Of a DNA stretch of 52,662 nt, positions 3,001 to 35,747 are shown in pieces. The DNA comes from a virus: positions 1-52,662 of IMG/VR virus record IMGVR_UViG_3300029267_002357; one strand, written 5' to 3'. The stretch's first letter is position 1. Each line of letters opens with the position of its first letter. Made by a program: the position numbers and the translations under genes. The notes under the pieces were generated by a model. The model worked only from the letters and a program-made list of their open reading frames with translations, was not told the origin of the DNA and did not search any database.

Positions 3001-3703
3001 ATCAGTTGTTTGCTCAATAGTGGCTGACCTGACTATGGGTCATGTTGATGAACTCTTATCAGGTATCATTACAGTTGAATCTTATGCGGAAGCTAGTGAA
3101 TTAGATAGTGACTTTCTCAAGGGATCTCTCAGACTTACACCTGATTTACAGTTCTGGTTCGATTACTTTCTAGAGAAAGAGAGTGTTGTAACTAAATATC
3201 AGATACCACATCCAGCAGCTGATATCCAACAGCAAACTGAGAAGTCATTCTTAGAATTATTATTTAATGATGAGTATGACCAACAGGGTTATAGATATCT
3301 CTATAGAAAGGTAGACAATCCTCTTCAGTGGCCAGCATCTATTAGAAGAAGAAAGATGTTAAATCCATATACAGCTAATTACTATGTAGCTGACAGTGAT
3401 TCTACTGGAGTTTGTACGATCAATATCTATGATCTACAAAACGACGATTTGCTTATGATGGATAGGTTATTAGTTTATAGATTAGAGCCTCATAATGCAA
3501 CATTGGTTGGAATTGATTACAATACCTTGAGTACCAACTTATCAAAAATGATCTACATTTACTTAGATCTTAAACTAAATGATAACTATACAGAATACGA
3601 CCATGGAGCTCTAATGTCCGGATCAGTTGATGTATTAGAGTCTTGTTTTGAAACATATTTGCTAGATAACGTCTTCAAACACGTATCAGAAAAAGGAACA
3701 TAA
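2..3703 (+). CDS. Giant 22-residue-repeat virion protein (5' end outside window)
   Basis: The reading frame is open to the left window edge, so the gene is truncated here; the first in-window start-like codon (TTG at 92) lies inside a repeat and is not the true start. About 1000 residues consist of tandem 22-residue repeats of the form L-x-L-G-x-x-E-x-L-x-x-T-x(4)-S-x-V-x-x-x, with the glycine recurring every 22 positions, rich in Val, Thr, Ser and Ala and almost free of Lys. Such regular short beta-rich repeats suggest a beta-solenoid or stacked beta-hairpin shaft. The last 190 residues are non-repetitive, charged and aromatic, a likely attachment or folding domain. Its place before a baseplate gene suggests a tail fibre or other virion appendage, but the function is inferred. 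The stop codon lies within the promoter of the next gene. Confidence 0.75.
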   Translation, partial: LELGADVVFTGGANAVSSLDAILTLGTSEELSATSTNVSSVDALLLLGTDEVFSASPLVQSNVNGALSVGIVEILASTAVTSSITTADLTIGVVEVLTSTAGVVSTVSGFIILGIDTVLTATANVTTSVDASPSLGVTEWLYVTSGVQSNTLSDLTLGTDEDLASTYYITASTVVDGLLTIGIVELLASTSATSSALAAELTLGVQHPVSSTGDAISNVVGDLSLGAAESLSATINIISYAIAEPLIVGVVELLASTAITTSITTASLDLGQSEPMSASSDSLCEVDAFLNLGVVEDLAHTLVVQSFVSSPEAIVGGPVSLSVIVLAQSNVVPDLVIGTSEELTATFDIGHNLEGVWIRSNVEAGILELILDGSADTQSNVNNADLTIGVGEFFSTYNPVVSVVSTANLQIGLIPTELSANIFPTSTAFATLFTGAPITLEATTDVVSDVQNVIELSVGNMGFASALIQSDLPMAYLVLGVAEHFESGTINIVSSVTTDGLNISVVELSASTSCESEVDGWAYAFYFPTAISTWQSNVTADLTKGDIVDLSGTAGAETDAGADPPAIGADVVLTADCFVESFCDGFIYFGLFPEFMTTDCNARSNVTAEHLILELVDLSGSADSVAFLQATMVMGVSEVLEGSTSVVAVVNGELLLGLTQLVGSSVTVTSSFPPAYLYVYVGLTSSITSQSYFPTPYLTLGLITEDLEGSSDSVSEIDGAIIIGYVELLSSTIVSTVSFPPAGLDIGAAEELTGSADVETNCSGFIVEGLIIVLTALNNIISTTSSSDLALGIAEVLTATTITTTTTISDLDVGEVEVLEGSCNVTSSVTSTMILGVVELLSSTTATISITSAIIFVGGAEYITATTSPSTEVDGTITIGGIESLSSTVGGQVYISGFPTMGVAEQIKSTLAITSAVGPADMDSGEIEQVSGTALITSFVEAPFSIDIPFDATIGCTSEVSIPDLVIGLETDLSSAISVLSTVIGGTVDIGQFEVLDATSSVVCSIVADLTMGHVDELLSGIITVESYAEASELDSDFLKGSLRLTPDLQFWFDYFLEKESVVTKYQIPHPAADIQQQTEKSFLELLFNDEYDQQGYRYLYRKVDNPLQWPASIRRRKMLNPYTANYYVADSDSTGVCTINIYDLQNDDLLMMDRLLVYRLEPHNATLVGIDYNTLSTNLSKMIYIYLDLKLNDNYTEYDHGALMSGSVDVLESCFETYLLDNVFKHVSEKGT

Positions 3704-5633: not shown

Positions 5634-6869
5634 ATGAACAATGGCTCTTCAGTAAAGTATCCAGGTCTCCAGGAATGGGTGATCAAAAGACTTAAGGCTG
5701 GAAAGACACCACCCTCGCTTTACGAAACTGCAGTCAAGAGATATGGGTATGAAAGCTCTAAGGACCAGTTTTGTAAGTATTGTAACACAGTCAAGACAAG
5801 ACATGTAGTAAAACTCCCTCGAAAAGAACCAACCACAAATCCCCAAGAAATGGTCGGAGACGACGTTTCTATTGTCCTCAAAAAATTGAAAAAAGAAAAA
5901 GAGGTTGATGTAGTTGAGCTATGTAATCAACTAAATTGTCCTCCAAGAAGAATCAATGAGATTGTCGAACATTTGAGGTCGAAGGGATCTGAAATTTCCG
6001 TTACAAATGGTACAGTATTTTTAAATACTGACATTGTAGCTGATGTTGATGGAGTTGATCGAATATCAGAAACTGAAATTGTTTTTGGTGTTGCATCGGA
6101 TTTACATTTTGGTTCTAAGTCTTGTCAGATCACTGCTCTTAATGAATTTGCAGAAATATGTAGAAAAAAAGGGGTACAACATATATTCTGCCCAGGTGAC
6201 GTTGTAGCAGGATATAACGTCTACCCTGGTCAACAATTTGATTTATACGGATTGTCAGCAGAAGAGCAGGAATCATCTACGGTAAGAAATTTACCCCAAG
6301 GATTTACGTGGTACATGCTAGGTGGGAATCATGACTACGCATTTATCAAAAAAGGAGGAGGACACAACCCACTATTATCTATCTCAAGCCAAAGAGAAGA
6401 TGTACAATATGTAGGGTTTGATGAAGCTAATATTCCCATACTCCACGGAGTTGAAATGAAACTCTGGCACCCGTCGGGAGGAGTTCCATATTCTATATCC
6501 TATCGACTACAAAAGGGCGTGGAGCAAGTAGCTTACCACGAATTAACAAGAATTGTTAGAGGTGCAACAGACAGACCTACAATTAGATTTATCTTATCTG
6601 GTCATTTGCATATTCAAATGCAAGCTCTATTTGGAAGTATTTTCGGATGTCAATGCGGGACATTCGAAGGACAAACTAATTATTTAAAACGCAAAGGACT
6701 CACGCCAAATATTGGAGGATATATTGTACAAGCCTCGTTAGGACAAAATGGTTTGTTAAAGAACTTCGACGCGAAATTTTATGTATTCGAAGAAATAGAA
6801 GACGACTGGCGACAATATAATCATTCAGTTGAACAACAAAAAATAGAGAGACCAGTATTTGCAGCATAG
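5634..6869 (+). CDS. Calcineurin-like metallophosphoesterase with N-terminal helical/winged-helix region
   Basis: 411 residues. The metal-binding signature of the family is complete and in order: D-L-H (D156, H158), G-D-V (G188, D189), G-N-H-D (N232-H233-D234) and S-G-H-L-H near residue 320. Family members hydrolyse phosphomono- or diesters with two metal ions; the substrate cannot be told from sequence. Residues 1-130 lack the motif and look like a small alpha-helical region (E-V-D-V-V-E-L-C-N-Q-L-N-C-P-P-R-R-I), resembling a winged-helix, so a nucleic-acid substrate is plausible. It has its own late-type promoter, and the start follows GAGAGG. It ends 5 bp before a bidirectional terminator. 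Confidence 0.85.
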   Translation: MNNGSSVKYPGLQEWVIKRLKAGKTPPSLYETAVKRYGYESSKDQFCKYCNTVKTRHVVKLPRKEPTTNPQEMVGDDVSIVLKKLKKEKEVDVVELCNQLNCPPRRINEIVEHLRSKGSEISVTNGTVFLNTDIVADVDGVDRISETEIVFGVASDLHFGSKSCQITALNEFAEICRKKGVQHIFCPGDVVAGYNVYPGQQFDLYGLSAEEQESSTVRNLPQGFTWYMLGGNHDYAFIKKGGGHNPLLSISSQREDVQYVGFDEANIPILHGVEMKLWHPSGGVPYSISYRLQKGVEQVAYHELTRIVRGATDRPTIRFILSGHLHIQMQALFGSIFGCQCGTFEGQTNYLKRKGLTPNIGGYIVQASLGQNGLLKNFDAKFYVFEEIEDDWRQYNHSVEQQKIERPVFAA

Positions 6870-9298: not shown

Positions 9299-11893
9299 TT
9301 ACCTCCTATACTCTCGCGGAATGTGTTTAAATGCCTCTGGATTGTGATTTATACAACCAGCAAGTCTTTTGTGGCCATTTTCAATTAACCACGTGTACGT
9401 TGGTAATTTACCTCCATTTTTACTAGCCAAGTCTTCTGCAATCTTTACCGACTCTGTAAGCGGTCTTGCTCTGGAATCCTGGATGATATGTTTAAATAAA
9501 TCTGGCTTCTTTTGCTTACACCTGACTACATTTGAATAGCCGTTTTTCACCAACCACGCAATATGTTGTAATTTTCCCCCGTTATTTTTTGCTAGATCTT
9601 CAGCAATTGCGACTATTTCATTGGGAGATTTTCTAGTGTCTTGTGGGATGTGTTTAAACAGTTCTGGGTGTTTATATTTGCACATATGTAGACCACCATA
9701 CCCGTTGTGACATAACCACCAGTCATTGGGTAGTACACCACTATGTTCCTCTGCTATCTCCTCTGCTATCTTAACCCACTCAAGTTTGTCATCAATTCGA
9801 AGTTTTCGTTCCCTCGGAATGTGCTCAAAAAGATGAGGATACTTGTACATACATTGGAGAAGCGGTTTAAAACCATTCTTCCTCAACCATGCGTGAGTCT
9901 GTAACTTACCATCATTCTCTTGAGCTAGTTTCTCCGCTGTTTCTACATGTTCATTTCGTGTTGTGAGGTCACGTTCTTGTTCCTGAGGTATGTGAGCAAA
10001 CAAATGAGGTGATGCAATCTTAGCTTGAGCAAGCGCTTTATATCCATTTTCTTTTAACCACTTTATTGATTGTAGAACACCGTCATTTTTCTCTGCAAGA
10101 ACCTCAGCAATTTTTACCCACTCGTAGACAGACTTTCTAGAATCGAATGTATTTCTAAACTCACTGAACAACTTGATTCCAGAAACGTCAGTACCAAACA
10201 TAAGAAGACCATCATAAATATCATTTTGCCAGATCTTATCAAATCCAGCCTCTAACATGAACGATAAATCTACACTTTCGGCTGTCCATCCAGGTCTTCG
10301 CTGTCCAGTTGACTGTCTGAGTATTTTTGCTATGTGTAAAGTTATATCGTCTAGTTTATCCTCCTGTATGTTGTAAGATTCAAGAGTCTCCCTAATACAT
10401 TGTCTTGCTTCTTCCGCCGTTGGTTCCTCTTTGATATTCCTGAGAAACATTAGATTTTTAGTGACCATCTCAAGGATCTCTTGTCTCTGTGATTCATAAG
10501 GAACTTCTTCTGTAAATGGATCAGGTGTGAACTCATACTTACTTGAGTCATCTCCAGGTTTAGCGTTACTAAGTTTCGGATAAGGAACTGGATCAATGAT
10601 CTGTCTGAGAAGTAACGCGCCAACAAACGCGTTAAAACTTTTACTCAGGTGTTCCCGCCTCTCCTCCTCGTCTTCAAAATCTGCTCGGAACGGAAGGAAT
10701 GCGTTATAAATCAAATGATACTTTCCAAAACAATCTCTCCACAACCTGCCATTTCGTTGAGCAGATACTCTCAATGAATCAGAAGGAACCAAATCAAGAA
10801 TCTGCTCAGCGTATACCCAATCAGAACCTTCATCAAAAACTTTCAAAGAGAGTATAACGTCAATGTCCTTAGCAAAGTTATCGTCAAAGAGAATATCCTT
10901 TCTTTTTTCCCTTCCATTAGGATCAATCAAGTCCATGATATTACAACCTGGCCACACACTCTTAATAGTCTCAATAAGTCTATCCCTGAAGATGAACTTA
11001 TCAATTCCTCGAATGAGGTTACCTGTGAATGGACAATAAATGATTGACTTCTTCTTGTTCTTCATTACTTCCTTAACTTCTTTTAGTATATCCTCCTTAT
11101 AGATCACGAAGTTAAATTCAAATGACCTGATGTGTTTAATGTTATACTTCCAGTGTTGGTCAAGAGGGAGAAAATGATAAGCAAACTTCTCAAGGATTTC
11201 TGGTGGGATAATACAACCTTTATCACCCCTGAAGAAGGTCCCTGTGGTTAGCCAGATGGAAGATGTTGGATCGTCTGCTTCGATAACCTCTGCGATAACA
11301 CTACCGATCCGATTACAAACCCTTGCGTTTCCGTTTTCGGGATATAGCAAATGGTGAGCTTCATCAAGAACGATTGTTGTGTTATGGAATAGATTCTCAC
11401 CATTCGTTTGTACCTTAGCCAGTGTCATGTGAGTAGTTAACATTATCCTATTATGAATTCCCTTCGGATATCGATGTTTTTTCAAGAATCTTTTTAATAC
11501 TTTCATTTTGGTAGTGTACATAACTTGCTTTGTTAGGTCCTTGTCAATATCCCACTCAATTTGAGTACCATCCTCATATTCAAGAATCACATGTCCAAAG
11601 GATTTTGCGATCCAAGTCTGAGGGATACAGATAATAAGTTTATGGTTAGGGTCTTTTACCAAACGATCAGCCATAACAAACTTAACGGCTGCACTCTTAC
11701 CAGCACCCGGAGGTTCGGACATTACCAAAAAAGGATCATCTCTATATGTATCAAAGATGTATTGTTGGTTTGGTCTAATCTGGTGTATCAAGATACCAGT
11801 ATTAGTAACTGTATTAACGTCAACTACATGTCCGCTCGCACCAAGTTCAGCAACAGATTTTTCTACTGATTTCTTGAACATTGGATAGATCAT
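9299..11893 (-). CDS. SF2 helicase with five C-terminal DNA-binding-like repeats
   Basis: 864 residues. Helicase motifs are in order: Walker A P-P-G-A-G-K-S (about residue 65), DEAH box V-L-D-E-A-H-H, T-T-G-T-F, and motif VI S-A-Q-R-N-G-R-L-W-R. From about residue 590 to the end there are five tandem repeats of roughly 52 residues with the pattern I-A-E-x-L-A-x-x-N-x-G-x-L-x-x-x-x-W-L-x-x-N-G-x(6)-C-x(4)-P-x-L-F-x-H-I-P. Each looks like a small helical bundle and may bind DNA. It probably unwinds or remodels phage DNA; a restriction-like or replication role cannot be separated. Start ATG follows GGAG, 38 bp downstream of an AT-rich promoter-like element. Confidence 0.85.
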   Translation of the reverse strand: MIYPMFKKSVEKSVAELGASGHVVDVNTVTNTGILIHQIRPNQQYIFDTYRDDPFLVMSEPPGAGKSAAVKFVMADRLVKDPNHKLIICIPQTWIAKSFGHVILEYEDGTQIEWDIDKDLTKQVMYTTKMKVLKRFLKKHRYPKGIHNRIMLTTHMTLAKVQTNGENLFHNTTIVLDEAHHLLYPENGNARVCNRIGSVIAEVIEADDPTSSIWLTTGTFFRGDKGCIIPPEILEKFAYHFLPLDQHWKYNIKHIRSFEFNFVIYKEDILKEVKEVMKNKKKSIIYCPFTGNLIRGIDKFIFRDRLIETIKSVWPGCNIMDLIDPNGREKRKDILFDDNFAKDIDVILSLKVFDEGSDWVYAEQILDLVPSDSLRVSAQRNGRLWRDCFGKYHLIYNAFLPFRADFEDEEERREHLSKSFNAFVGALLLRQIIDPVPYPKLSNAKPGDDSSKYEFTPDPFTEEVPYESQRQEILEMVTKNLMFLRNIKEEPTAEEARQCIRETLESYNIQEDKLDDITLHIAKILRQSTGQRRPGWTAESVDLSFMLEAGFDKIWQNDIYDGLLMFGTDVSGIKLFSEFRNTFDSRKSVYEWVKIAEVLAEKNDGVLQSIKWLKENGYKALAQAKIASPHLFAHIPQEQERDLTTRNEHVETAEKLAQENDGKLQTHAWLRKNGFKPLLQCMYKYPHLFEHIPRERKLRIDDKLEWVKIAEEIAEEHSGVLPNDWWLCHNGYGGLHMCKYKHPELFKHIPQDTRKSPNEIVAIAEDLAKNNGGKLQHIAWLVKNGYSNVVRCKQKKPDLFKHIIQDSRARPLTESVKIAEDLASKNGGKLPTYTWLIENGHKRLAGCINHNPEAFKHIPREYRR

Positions 11894-11930: not shown

Positions 11931-11947
11931 CTCATTTATATATATAG
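11931..11947 (-). promoter_or_regulatory. AT-rich promoter-like element for the helicase operon
   Basis: Reads CTATATATATAAATGAG on the - strand, 38 bp before the helicase ATG, just after the terminator of the upstream noncoding RNA. Confidence 0.5.
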
Positions 11948-11955
11948 TAAATTGA

Positions 11956-12165
11956 TCCAAAAAAAGACCGGTGACCACCTTTACTCGCTGAAGCGCAAGT
12001 TGCTGGTGAGGCGGATGAGCCACCGGTCTTTTTAGGGTGAGGGGAGCACAGCTCCGCTCTTTCTCATGCCTCCCTAGCCGGAGGCTGGGCTGACGGTCCA
12101 TGTCGGCGCGATATCCAATAGGATTCTCTTCTAAGGAGGAAGGCGAGCCGACAAATCCGTCTGTC
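11956..12165 (-). ncRNA. Structured noncoding RNA candidate with anti-Shine-Dalgarno segment
   Basis: About 205 nt between an AT-rich promoter-like element and a strong terminator, in a 387-bp gap without a convincing gene. In transcript order: a helix TGTCGGC / GCCGACA (12147-12153 with 12101-12107) enclosing CCTCCTTAG (12131-12139), which matches the anti-Shine-Dalgarno tail of 16S rRNA; a hairpin GCCTCC / GGAGGC; a hairpin around GGAG / CTCC; then the terminator. It has no start codon with a ribosome binding site. Function unknown; binding of mRNA leaders or of 30S subunits is conceivable. Confidence 0.55.
11959..12033. terminator. Terminator with long structured loop
   Basis: 13-bp stem AAAAAGACCGGTG (11961-11973) / CACCGGTCTTTTT (12021-12033). 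The - strand ends in seven U, the + strand in five U, so it can work both ways. The 47-nt loop contains further short pairings (CACC / GGTG). Confidence 0.75.
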
Positions 12166-12166
12166 A

Positions 12167-12183
12167 CTAATTAATATATATAG
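12167..12183 (-). promoter_or_regulatory. AT-rich promoter-like element for the 11956-12165 RNA
   Basis: Reads CTATATATATTAATTAG on the - strand, the same element as before the - strand genes at 7548 and 16500. No gene follows directly, which is why a noncoding transcript is proposed. Confidence 0.5.
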
Positions 12184-12224
12184 ACATCCATTCTTTTCTT
12201 GATTCCTTTCTAATGTCCTTTCCA

Positions 12225-12238
12225 GAACAAAATATAAA
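12225..12238 (+). promoter_or_regulatory. Late-type phage promoter GAACAAAATATAAA
   Basis: Motif copy 43 bp before the ATG of the 12281 gene; it probably drives this gene and the sheath. Confidence 0.6.
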
Positions 12239-12280
12239 GTACGAGTAGTTGATCCAATAGTATCTAAAAGGAGATCTTCA

Positions 12281-12943
12281 ATGGAAGATAAAGTCAAAAC
12301 AATCCATGTTAAAGTCGATGATAAATATGGAGATTCTTGTGTTGGCGACTCAGCGTGTCCAATATCCAAAACAAGAAAACCTGAAGGTTATGTTGAAATT
12401 TATGATGTACTAGAGGATGGTAATAAACAACTTATCGGAAAACATAACCTTGTTCTTTACGTGGGTAGAGAATGGATTTGTTCAAGAATCTTCAATCAAG
12501 TTAATGTAAATATTACACCAGAAGAGGACGAATGGATCAACTGGTTAGGAGTTGGTACTGGTGGTGCTCCAGTCGGAGACCCTCTAAATCCAACTACACC
12601 GGTAAGTACTGACACAGGTCTTTCGACAGAAGTGTCAATTCACACAACCGACACCAATCTCGCCGATTTTAGAGCAGGCGCGTATTGGAAACATCCATTC
12701 GACTCTGTCGAGTTTCAACAAGATTCTGCTAACAACAACCAATGGTTGATTGCAAAAGTTACAACAACACTTGGAACAGATGATGCAAACGGTAATAATT
12801 TGAATGAAGCCGCATTGTTTACTTCCGACAGTGACGCAGGTGGTCATACGGGACCTTTCAATATATTTAGTCTAGTTACTTTCCCAACCATCGTAAAAGA
12901 TTCTAGCAGACAAATTATGTTCATGTGGTATCTTTACTGTTAA
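12281..12943 (+). CDS. Virion structural protein, tail-fibre or decoration type
   Basis: 220 residues behind AAAGGAGA. It is beta-rich with conserved-looking segments: L-V-L-Y-V-G-R-E-W near residue 60, W-L-G-V-G-T-G-G near 88, then N-E-A-A-L-F-T-S and F-S-L-V-T-F-P-T-I-V-K near the C terminus. I recall this combination from a widespread phage structural family, but not its exact role. The first 35 residues contain two Cys and look like an added tail. It precedes the sheath gene in the same transcript; the 112-bp gap between them holds no further gene. Confidence 0.6.
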   Translation: MEDKVKTIHVKVDDKYGDSCVGDSACPISKTRKPEGYVEIYDVLEDGNKQLIGKHNLVLYVGREWICSRIFNQVNVNITPEEDEWINWLGVGTGGAPVGDPLNPTTPVSTDTGLSTEVSIHTTDTNLADFRAGAYWKHPFDSVEFQQDSANNNQWLIAKVTTTLGTDDANGNNLNEAALFTSDSDAGGHTGPFNIFSLVTFPTIVKDSSRQIMFMWYLYC

Positions 12944-15483: not shown

Positions 15484-16500
15484 TTAAAGATGGAATCGAA
15501 ATACAGTTGTTTCGAGTTGTTCACTCTTTGTCTTTTTGATCTCGATGTCGCGAATTCTCTCCGGAGTAAGAATTCCCAATTTCATCAGATCTTGGACCTC
15601 ACCTGTAGTGCTACATTCCACCGTAGCCGCGCCAGATAAATCAACTTCTTCAGCGGACACTTCTTCTACCACCGGCGATTCAGGAAGTTCTGCGATGGTC
15701 TTATCACTTCTATCCCTAAAAGCCTCGATAACAGGGATGGTATTCTTTCCTTGTGAAGCTGTCAGCGCGATAGCTTGACCAAGGTTTAACCTGAGAAAAT
15801 CAGGATGTACCGAGTATCCCCACTTGGAACGCTTACCCTTCTTTGGTTTAAAATCATGTCTGTATAGGAACTGTAGAGGTGTTTTTTCACGATACTTATT
15901 CTCCTCTATTTTATCATACACAGACTTGATGCCCCAAGAGATATTACCCGACCTTAACCTCTTTTCCTGTTCCGGAAACATCTCAATGAGTGAGAGCAAC
16001 ATATCGTTTGAGGATATATACTGTCTATCCTCTCGATTGAATAGAACTGCTCCCCTTGCTTTGCATTTTTCAAGAATATCCCTGAACCCCAGAAACGCCA
16101 TCAGTATAAACTGTGATACTGGCGCTGTTGTGGGATCAAATTGAACATCTTCGATGTCCTTCAATTTAGCCATTGTATCATACCTCCGAAGGTCAAATAT
16201 ACTAGCTGACCTTTTAGTTGTGACAGTCCGACGATCTCGTTTACTAACCGTACTTTGAAATTTCGGTCTAACTGGGATCGCTCCCTTAACAATGCGGATA
16301 GTAGACTGTCTGTGTTCATCTTGTACCTCTTCAGTTTTCTTTCTTTCCAGAAAGTCCTGAATCTCTTCACCCAATTTTTCTTCGATTTCTGGGTCTCCCC
16401 TCGGTTCGGGAAAGCCAAATTTTTCGCATATCTTTTTGGCTTTCCTAAAAGGTAAAACTTTGGTCACATCTCTAGCCTCCTTCCTCCTTATTTTAGACAT
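15484..16500 (-). CDS. Hypothetical phage protein, possible DNA-binding regulator
   Basis: 338 residues. The first 110 residues are strongly basic and repeatedly charged (S-K-R-D-R-R-T-V-T-T-K-R), probably flexible. The middle is alpha-helical (D-I-L-E-K-C-K-A-R-G and D-M-L-L-S-L-I-E-M-F-P-E-Q-E), followed by the basic stretch F-K-P-K-K-G-K-R-S-K-W-G-Y-S-V-H-P, and the C-terminal 90 residues are acidic. The charge layout suggests nucleic-acid contact, but no family is recognised. Monocistronic behind an AT-rich promoter-like element 16 bp upstream; ATG follows AAGGA. Confidence 0.65.
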   Translation of the reverse strand: MSKIRRKEARDVTKVLPFRKAKKICEKFGFPEPRGDPEIEEKLGEEIQDFLERKKTEEVQDEHRQSTIRIVKGAIPVRPKFQSTVSKRDRRTVTTKRSASIFDLRRYDTMAKLKDIEDVQFDPTTAPVSQFILMAFLGFRDILEKCKARGAVLFNREDRQYISSNDMLLSLIEMFPEQEKRLRSGNISWGIKSVYDKIEENKYREKTPLQFLYRHDFKPKKGKRSKWGYSVHPDFLRLNLGQAIALTASQGKNTIPVIEAFRDRSDKTIAELPESPVVEEVSAEEVDLSGAATVECSTTGEVQDLMKLGILTPERIRDIEIKKTKSEQLETTVFRFHL

Positions 16501-16515
16501 GAGAATCCTTACTCA

Positions 16516-34097: not shown

Positions 34098-34117
34098 AGA
34101 TTTATATATATTAATAA
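34098..34117 (-). promoter_or_regulatory. AT-rich promoter-like element before the terminase operon
   Basis: Reads TTATTAATATATATAAATC on the - strand, about 50 bp before the terminase ATG. The element is near-symmetric and could also serve the + strand unit at 34246. Confidence 0.45.
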
Positions 34118-34119
34118 CT

Positions 34120-34245
34120 GAGAAAACATATTGTTTTCTCTTCTGCTGACCTATAACTAAAGGAGGTTTCGGTTGGCTTAGGCACGCCTCGTTTGTCGCA
34201 AGGAGGAGTATTACTAACCTAAACTGCGCAGAGGAAGGAAATGTG
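34120..34245 (+). other. Structured, Shine-Dalgarno-rich leader of the 34246 gene
   Basis: Part of a 396-bp gap between terminase and hub genes. It holds a 9-bp hairpin GAGAAAACA / TGTTTTCTC, two good Shine-Dalgarno sequences not followed by a normal start (AAAGGAGG near 34163, AAGGAGG near 34200), and CTCGTTTGT near 34188, whose complement ACAAACGAG forms codons 2-4 of the downstream ORF. Pairing would place the true ribosome binding site in a loop, suggesting translational control. Confidence 0.4.
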
Positions 34246-34380
34246 ATGTACAAACGAGAAATTGTTAACAAAGGTCATGATGGAGGACAATTGAACATTC
34301 ACCAAAAATTTGATTTGAAAGGAGGTACCATGATTTATTTACAAGAGGCTAAAATCTACCGGACTCTAACCCTTACGTAG
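34246..34380 (+). CDS. 44-residue protein on the strand opposite its neighbours
   Basis: ATG-TAC-AAA preceded by GAGGAAGG at 7 bp. A second in-frame ATG at 34330 has an even better AAAGGAGG, which would give a 16-residue form. The product is polar (M-Y-K-R-E-I-V-N-K-G-H-D-G-G) and has no recognised family. A + strand terminator follows at 34395-34440. Evidence is ribosome binding sites and layout only. Confidence 0.4.
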   Translation: MYKREIVNKGHDGGQLNIHQKFDLKGGTMIYLQEAKIYRTLTLT

Positions 34381-34394
34381 TCTATTGTACCACC

Positions 34395-34440
34395 CCCATC
34401 TTTTTATAGAAAAAGGTGGGATTGTCCCCGAAAGGGGACA
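34395..34440. terminator. Double hairpin terminator between convergent units
   Basis: First hairpin CCCATCTTTTT / AAAAAGGTGGG with loop ATAG; second TGTCCCC / GGGGACA closed by a GAAA tetraloop. It serves the + strand small gene and, in the other direction, the hub gene ending at 34446. Confidence 0.7.
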
Positions 34441-34445
34441 GTCCT

Positions 34446-35747
34446 TTATTGTCCGATTGTTCGATTAGTTCTTGCAAGCTGTAGTCTTGCGGTCGACGTC
34501 CAAATTCCACCATCTCGAATTAGAACAACATCAGTCGAGAATAATATATAATTTCCACTTAATCCCTTATGTTCTAATGTTGTAGTTTTCAGCTTAACTG
34601 GGCGACCGATATTCATTAAGTATGTTAATTTAATATTTCGATCTAGTTGAAAGCTTATTCTTGACAAATCAAATATCTTCTTAGCCACCATCGCATTTGC
34701 GAAAGTATCTTGTGTTTCAACACCGCCATGTAAGATGTAATATTTTTTTCTATGATCTATTTCTGCTCCAACCGGTATGTCTTTTCGTTGATCTATAATC
34801 CCGAATCTTCCACAAATATTTGTGAGATCTTGTTGAACAACCGCATATAGTGAGTCGCTTGGCAAAACAATATGATTGATATCATTTCCTATTACAGCAA
34901 ATTTTGTGTTACCTACGTAGGTTGTTTGGAGGTTATCATATGTATAATAAGTTCGATCTTTTAGATTCTTAAAAATAGCATCTTCTGGGTTTGCACTTGT
35001 GGACAAATGATAAATTGTTAGTCTGTCTTTTGAACTTTTAATTCGATAGGATAAGTTCATTACTTGTAATTCATTATCATGTTTACAAAACACAGCACAT
35101 GCTCCATCAAATAATCCATAGGTATCATCTAGATAATTAATAGCGCTATATAATGTAGTTGGTGGCACACACAACTGTGGTACCTTATTTTTGTTTTGAT
35201 TTGCAGAATCATATTTAATTGTTGTATTAGAAGAAAACTCAGACACCAGACTCTCAATAACCTCTTTTGGAGTTTTTGGATCTTCTACAACACCAAATAC
35301 TTCATTTACAGTTGTAGTCATTGATATGTATGGTTTTCTTGGTACGGTTAGTAATCTTACTGTAGTTCTATCAAGAGTATGTTCAAGACCTGGTGCAGCC
35401 ATTGCATCCGTGACAGGCATCTCAAATTCAACTGAAATTAACATCAAATCAAATTCTAATGTATCCTGCGGTTGAGATCTTACAGGCTCTGAAGCAGTAT
35501 TTTGTTGGAGAAGTTCTATCTTTAATTTGATTGGATCTTCACCAGATAGAGATGGGATGATTGCATCTTTTGCTGCGATATTTAAAATGATCTCTATGTT
35601 CGGATATGCTGACGCAAGAGAGGAAGCAATTCTAACTCCCGCCAAATCATTTGTATATGTTAAATCCTTAATTCGAAGATCAAGAAAGAAATTTACAGCG
35701 GGTTGGTTTATAACTCCTTGAGCTTCACTAGAAATTTTTTCAGGCAA
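34446..35747 (-). CDS. Baseplate hub protein (T4 gp27 / gpD-like)
   Basis: 433 residues starting with TTG at 35747, justified by AGGAGA 6 bp upstream and the lack of a nearby ATG. Segments typical of hub proteins: an N-terminal barrel-like region, C-V-P-P-T-T-L-Y-S-A-I-N-Y-L-D-D-T-Y-G-L-F near residue 195, and the C-terminal G-L-S-G-N-Y-I-L-F-S-T-D-V-V followed by S-T-A-R-L-Q-L-A-R-T-N. Hub trimers sit under the tube and carry the spike. Monocistronic, with its own late-type promoter and terminator. Confidence 0.7.
   Translation of the reverse strand: MPEKISSEAQGVINQPAVNFFLDLRIKDLTYTNDLAGVRIASSLASAYPNIEIILNIAAKDAIIPSLSGEDPIKLKIELLQQNTASEPVRSQPQDTLEFDLMLISVEFEMPVTDAMAAPGLEHTLDRTTVRLLTVPRKPYISMTTTVNEVFGVVEDPKTPKEVIESLVSEFSSNTTIKYDSANQNKNKVPQLCVPPTTLYSAINYLDDTYGLFDGACAVFCKHDNELQVMNLSYRIKSSKDRLTIYHLSTSANPEDAIFKNLKDRTYYTYDNLQTTYVGNTKFAVIGNDINHIVLPSDSLYAVVQQDLTNICGRFGIIDQRKDIPVGAEIDHRKKYYILHGGVETQDTFANAMVAKKIFDLSRISFQLDRNIKLTYLMNIGRPVKLKTTTLEHKGLSGNYILFSTDVVLIRDGGIWTSTARLQLARTNRTIGQ

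Follow-up and report, generated by a model that had tools for sequence, protein, structure and literature searches.

Several bacterial small RNAs expose an unpaired anti-Shine-Dalgarno (anti-SD) or C/CU-rich loop, among them CyaR of E. coli, RNAIII, RsaE and SprD of S. aureus, LhrC of Listeria and FsrA of B. subtilis. CyaR and the UCCC-loop small RNAs are host RNAs with proven targets, on which they form imperfect duplexes over the ribosome-binding site (RBS). To our knowledge, jumbo phages that bring their own RNA polymerases have so far yielded very few noncoding RNAs. Those found by Grad-seq in phiKZ come from the 3′ UTR of PHIKZ298 (about 100 nt) and the 5′ UTR of p40 (about 180 nt) (PMC8545117). 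In phages of the AR9 type, a virion RNA polymerase transcribes the early genes and a second polymerase the late ones (PMC5312081, PMC7598289). The AR9 promoter consensus is AAATATATATTAT-6N-G for early genes and AACA-6N-TA/G for late genes (PMC5312081).

Here we describe a putative noncoding RNA (ncRNA) of about 205 nt, encoded on the minus strand from 12165 to ~11960 of a 52,662-nt viral DNA fragment (the window, by which we mean the whole stretch of DNA analysed). Like the phiKZ RNAs, it is a short, structured RNA of similar size without an ORF, from what is probably a two-polymerase jumbo phage; whereas those RNAs are produced from mRNA UTRs, through processing or premature termination, this one appears to be a stand-alone unit bounded by promoter and terminator. 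With AR9 early units it shares an AT-rich early promoter, a purine start and a terminator-defined end, although the part of the AR9 account available to us describes early promoters upstream of genes and has no stand-alone noncoding early RNA among those described (PMC5312081). With CyaR and its like it shares a loop that is predicted to be exposed, and it may, by prediction, form an imperfect duplex over an RBS as they do; it differs from them in being phage-borne, driven by a phage early promoter, unrelated in sequence and matched to a candidate target only. If anything, the ncRNA would work in the manner of an anti-SD-loop small RNA; none of the described families includes it. An early RNA gene that stands alone and comes with a candidate target is open to direct testing, and looking for early promoters that lack a following ORF offers an approach to further cases.

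The early transcription unit

The window appears to be part of a jumbo-phage genome of the AR9, PBS1 and phiR1-37 kind, a class suggested by its tail sheath and promoters. The best named-phage matches of the sheath are phiR1-37, Staphylococcus jumbo phages and AR9/PBS1 (26–29% identity), and its relatives in IMG/VR lie mostly at 59–70%; for most of the relatives used in the comparisons below, sheath identity is only about 56–70%. Bacterial genomes queried with the sheath or the terminase for a host gave no match. Two motifs recur in the window and its relatives: the early motif CTATATATATTAATAARTGA, which has an ORF downstream in most occurrences, usually about 45–75 nt away, and AGAACAWAATATAAA, which lies ahead of virion genes.

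An early-promoter matrix built from 43 sites in relatives only (training median, 27.4 bits) gives more than 9 bits at just five sites of the 52-kb window, and no site in five shuffled windows scores higher than 14.3 bits. The site at 12183–12164 (minus strand; CTATATATATTAATTAGTGA, or CTATATATATTAATTAGTG when taken to 12165) scores 28.7 bits, above the training median, and matches the AR9 early consensus in the correct orientation. It predicts transcription from G12165 or A12164, which is the end coordinate in the initial annotation. That annotation had a promoter-like element and a strong terminator bounding about 205 nt without a gene, and its coordinates and minus strand prove right almost to the base. 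Its promoter is upheld with a change of class: no sigma-70 promoter was found there, and the site fits an early promoter of the AR9/phiKZ type. On the opposite strand, the late promoter GAACAAAATATAAAG (12224–12240, plus strand) serves the divergent virion gene 12281–12943; it repeats at 3696, 5578, 7604 and 16575 and resembles the AR9 late consensus. Elsewhere in the window, at 34102–34446 (plus strand), an early promoter of 29.8 bits is followed by a stretch that has several strong SD sites and whose ORFs are all very short.

At its 3′ end the ncRNA has a terminator hairpin (12034–11960, minus strand; AAAAAGACCGGTG..CACCGGTCTTTTTTT), whose long helix, AAAAAGACCGGTG..CACCGGTC, runs into U7 and which is terminator-shaped on both strands. 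No ORF follows the ncRNA promoter until the gene of a DEAD-box helicase 287 nt away (9299–11893, minus strand; Pfam PF00270, phrog_16), which has a separate early promoter of 23.5 bits, CTATATATATAAATGAGTA, at 11947–11929 (minus strand), behind the ncRNA terminator. Read from the sequence, the region is a discrete unit with its own promoter and terminator, and it contains no SD-led ORF. One frame is open across it, a GTG-started ORF of 79 aa at 12167–11928, and might be taken for a small protein gene; but its start lies at or before the transcription start site, it has no SD sequence, it crosses the terminator into the helicase promoter, and it matches no family. We regard a protein product as the most improbable of the readings considered.

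Adjacency to the helicase gene on the same strand raises a further reading, in which a longer helicase mRNA begins here, with the region as its 5′ leader, but usually terminates early, read-through being controlled in cis and the short RNA being a by-product. The 5′-UTR RNA of phiKZ p40, with two stem-loops in about 180 nt, is thought to arise by premature termination in this way. Against this, a leader switch would govern helicase expression only in part, given the good early promoter that the gene has beyond the terminator; nor is any alternative anti-terminator pairing evident, the ncRNA having no helix stronger than that of the terminator. We consider a leader or attenuator unlikely, and return to it with the relatives below.

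Composition and folding set the region apart. The segment 11966–12170 has the highest GC content of all 205-nt segments in the 52 kb (0.576 versus 0.392; 0.58 for the ncRNA), and the ncRNA region has the lowest folding energy among them (minimum free energy (MFE) −88.9 kcal/mol for 11956–12170). After correction for GC its folding energy is low but not the lowest, being exceeded by several segments, some with long intergenic hairpins. The minus-strand fold has a z-score of −4.5 against dinucleotide shuffles, of which 1 in 200 is equally stable; folding of the plus strand is similar, as helices would lead one to expect, but no matching promoter accompanies it. Because a phage early promoter, the lack of an ORF, a terminator and outlying GC content and structure coincide, a noncoding RNA gene is well supported, and we conclude that 11960–12165 (minus strand) is very probably a real, well-delimited early RNA gene.

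Predicted fold and the anti-SD loop

The MFE and centroid structures agree on a 5′ domain at 12092–12161 (this and the following hairpins on the minus strand), in which an outer helix, GACGG/CCGTC, leads to the helix TGTCGGC (12153–12147)/GCCGACA (12107–12101) closing a three-way junction. One predicted junction hairpin, CUUC[CUCCUUA]GAAG at 12128–12142, presents the anti-SD octamer CCUCCUUA (12139–12132); the second, AUCC[UAUU]GGAU, lies at 12113–12124. Two more predicted hairpins follow: hairpin 2 (GCCTCC..GGGAGGC, 12065–12087), where a second CCTCC is base-paired, and hairpin 3 (GAGCGGAGC..GCTCCCCTC, 12039–12059). ARAGORN detects no fold that would make the ncRNA a tRNA, a tmRNA or a derivative of either.

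The 7-nt loop CUCCUUA is predicted to be unpaired with a probability of 0.62–0.97 across 12138–12132. The anti-SD sequence had been placed in the loop of the TGTCGGC/GCCGACA helix; both the helix and the loop location hold, but the motif sits in a small hairpin of its own inside that loop. The motif had also been called identical to the anti-SD tail of 16S rRNA. Since the usual 16S tail is ACCUCCUUA, the match extends over 8 nt (CCUCCUUA) and not 9: the G falls outside the tail, and the 5′ neighbour is U, not A. Among dinucleotide shuffles of the ncRNA, 0.5% contain the octamer CCTCCTTA, which is therefore, on its own, suggestive only. With precedents in CyaR, RNAIII and LhrC, it is plausible by analogy that the ncRNA acts through a presented anti-SD loop.

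An exposed CUCCUUA might alternatively act as a general competitor of translation, titrating ribosomes or the SD sequences of all mRNAs. Competition with 16S rRNA, which the initial annotation had entertained, is unlikely on energetic grounds, as the 8-bp loop pairing yields −10.8 kcal/mol less about 3 for opening. Such an RNA would also have to rival the concentration of ribosomes and would strike phage mRNAs with the same kind of SD; we judge general competition very improbable.

A chance of 0.5% per RNA, for one among many motifs that could have been noticed, also leaves room for a coincidental anti-SD match in a structured RNA whose action depends on a protein or which serves as a decoy, for instance against a host defence or RNA-processing factor. 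In favour of this, the ncRNA is mostly tight helices, and the differing small early genes that relatives carry in its slot are typical of fast-changing host-takeover genes. There is, against this, no Rfam match and no decoy target that we could name, and we hold the reading to be rather unlikely.

Candidate target and proposed mechanism

Pairing was computed between nt 18–62 of the ncRNA and 57–58 translation start regions of the window. The top predicted target is the start of early gene 15484–16500, at −38.2 kcal/mol (mean −21.3, s.d. 5.2; next −31.5 to −31.8). The site, at 16479–16509 (minus strand) and first in rank among the start regions, takes in the SD sequence, the spacer, the AUG (16500) and codons 4–8. 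The predicted duplex comprises 23 base pairs in two blocks of 14 and 9 bp, with CCUUCCUCCUUAGAAGAGAAUCCU on the ncRNA side: CCUUCCUCCU would pair with AGGAGGAAGG (codons 4–8), UAGA with UCUA, and GAGAAUCCU with the SD-spacer sequence AGGAUUCUC, the AUG being looped out. After opening costs the pairing is worth −17.7 kcal/mol.

Among 5228 genome windows, too, this start ranks best (−37.0), with a purine-rich stretch inside the helicase gene close to it (−35.7). An equal or better best target was obtained for shuffled versions of the RNA domain with P=0.015, or P=0.125 if the anti-SD octamer was kept. Statistically, the case for gene 15484–16500 as a target is weak, a modelled lead and not proof. 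At its position in the relative closest by tail sheath, reading by eye gave no recognisable homologue. The neighbouring gene 12281 was set aside as a target: it offers the complementarity CUAUUGGAU/AUCCAAUAG but ranks only 11–18 among the start regions.

The leading mechanism, which we advance tentatively, is that of an early phage small RNA acting as an antisense regulator at RBSs. At the onset of infection, the virion RNA polymerase that is injected together with the DNA would start the ncRNA at 12165 (minus strand) and stop at the hairpin terminator, ahead of the helicase promoter. The transcript would fold into a 5′ domain with the three-way junction, followed by two hairpins and then the terminator hairpin. 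Its CU-rich loop, CUUC[CUCCUUA]GAAG, could then start antisense pairing at RBSs and spread into the flanks of selected mRNAs, blocking initiation, with the phage's own early gene 15484–16500 as the strongest candidate target. That such a regulatory RNA, made by an injected polymerase, silences selected host or phage RBSs in the first minutes, before any phage protein is translated, is a bolder proposal that we think distinctly unlikely. If true, a two-polymerase phage would be using RNA for host takeover or for early-to-middle switching.

The locus in related phages

No homologue of the ncRNA was found in 28 related contigs (including contigs of 312, 244, 185, 121 and 94 kb) by nucleotide, profile or 5′-domain covariance-model searches, the window itself being the only match. 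In a sensitivity simulation on a 0.2-Mb set, a smaller database, nhmmer recovered 39–40 of 40 copies that carried up to 40% substitutions. Searched as DNA, collections of phage, plasmid and E. coli sequences returned nothing relevant, and Rfam covariance models assigned no family (top score 15.1 bits, below the gathering cut-off of 60). Pattern scans of IMG/VR, run with the hairpin, with the promoter combined with CCTCCTT and with two 18-mers, gave chance matches, except for the leader in L237 described below. As no homologue was found, the loop is without conservation support, and covariation is available for neither loop nor target.

Conservation of the loop in related phages had been set beforehand as a test of the proposal. 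Its failure in the 28 contigs speaks against the proposal, but weakly, because the relatives are distant, the genes in the slot differ and same-species contigs fall short of the locus. Those contigs (98–100% identical, from IMG/VR) end at about 18 kb of the window or begin beyond, and none covers the ncRNA locus. In relatives, small early genes of other kinds occupy this slot next to the virion genes, which suggests that the slot turns over fast.

Structured early leaders do occur in these phages. In L003, the relative closest by sheath, a leader at 5973–6156 (minus strand), syntenic with the ncRNA, forms a long hairpin with CCTCCCTCCTTT before a 132-aa gene (phrog_26039). The L237 leader (507–640) carries CCTCCTTA between two hairpins and can pair with its own RBS, TAAGGGGG, possibly as a cis switch. 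In L087 (7356–7700, plus strand) the leader is very long and structured, the first SD-led ORF beginning at +345. CCTCC-bearing structured leaders in these three relatives, in L003 at the syntenic place, favour the view of the ncRNA as a helicase leader, and the elements in L003 and L237 keep cis regulation alive as a rival. An apparent enrichment of CCTCC/CTCCT in early leaders (7 versus 2.4 expected) was discarded as inflated, since it includes two motif-selected cases and one tRNA T-arm. Finally, a 244.5-kb relative, the AR9-like jumbo phage G026, has a tmRNA gene (L160, 11025–11399; tag ADNLAFAAADDYATAALAA) right after an early promoter at 10988, with a tRNA cluster nearby.
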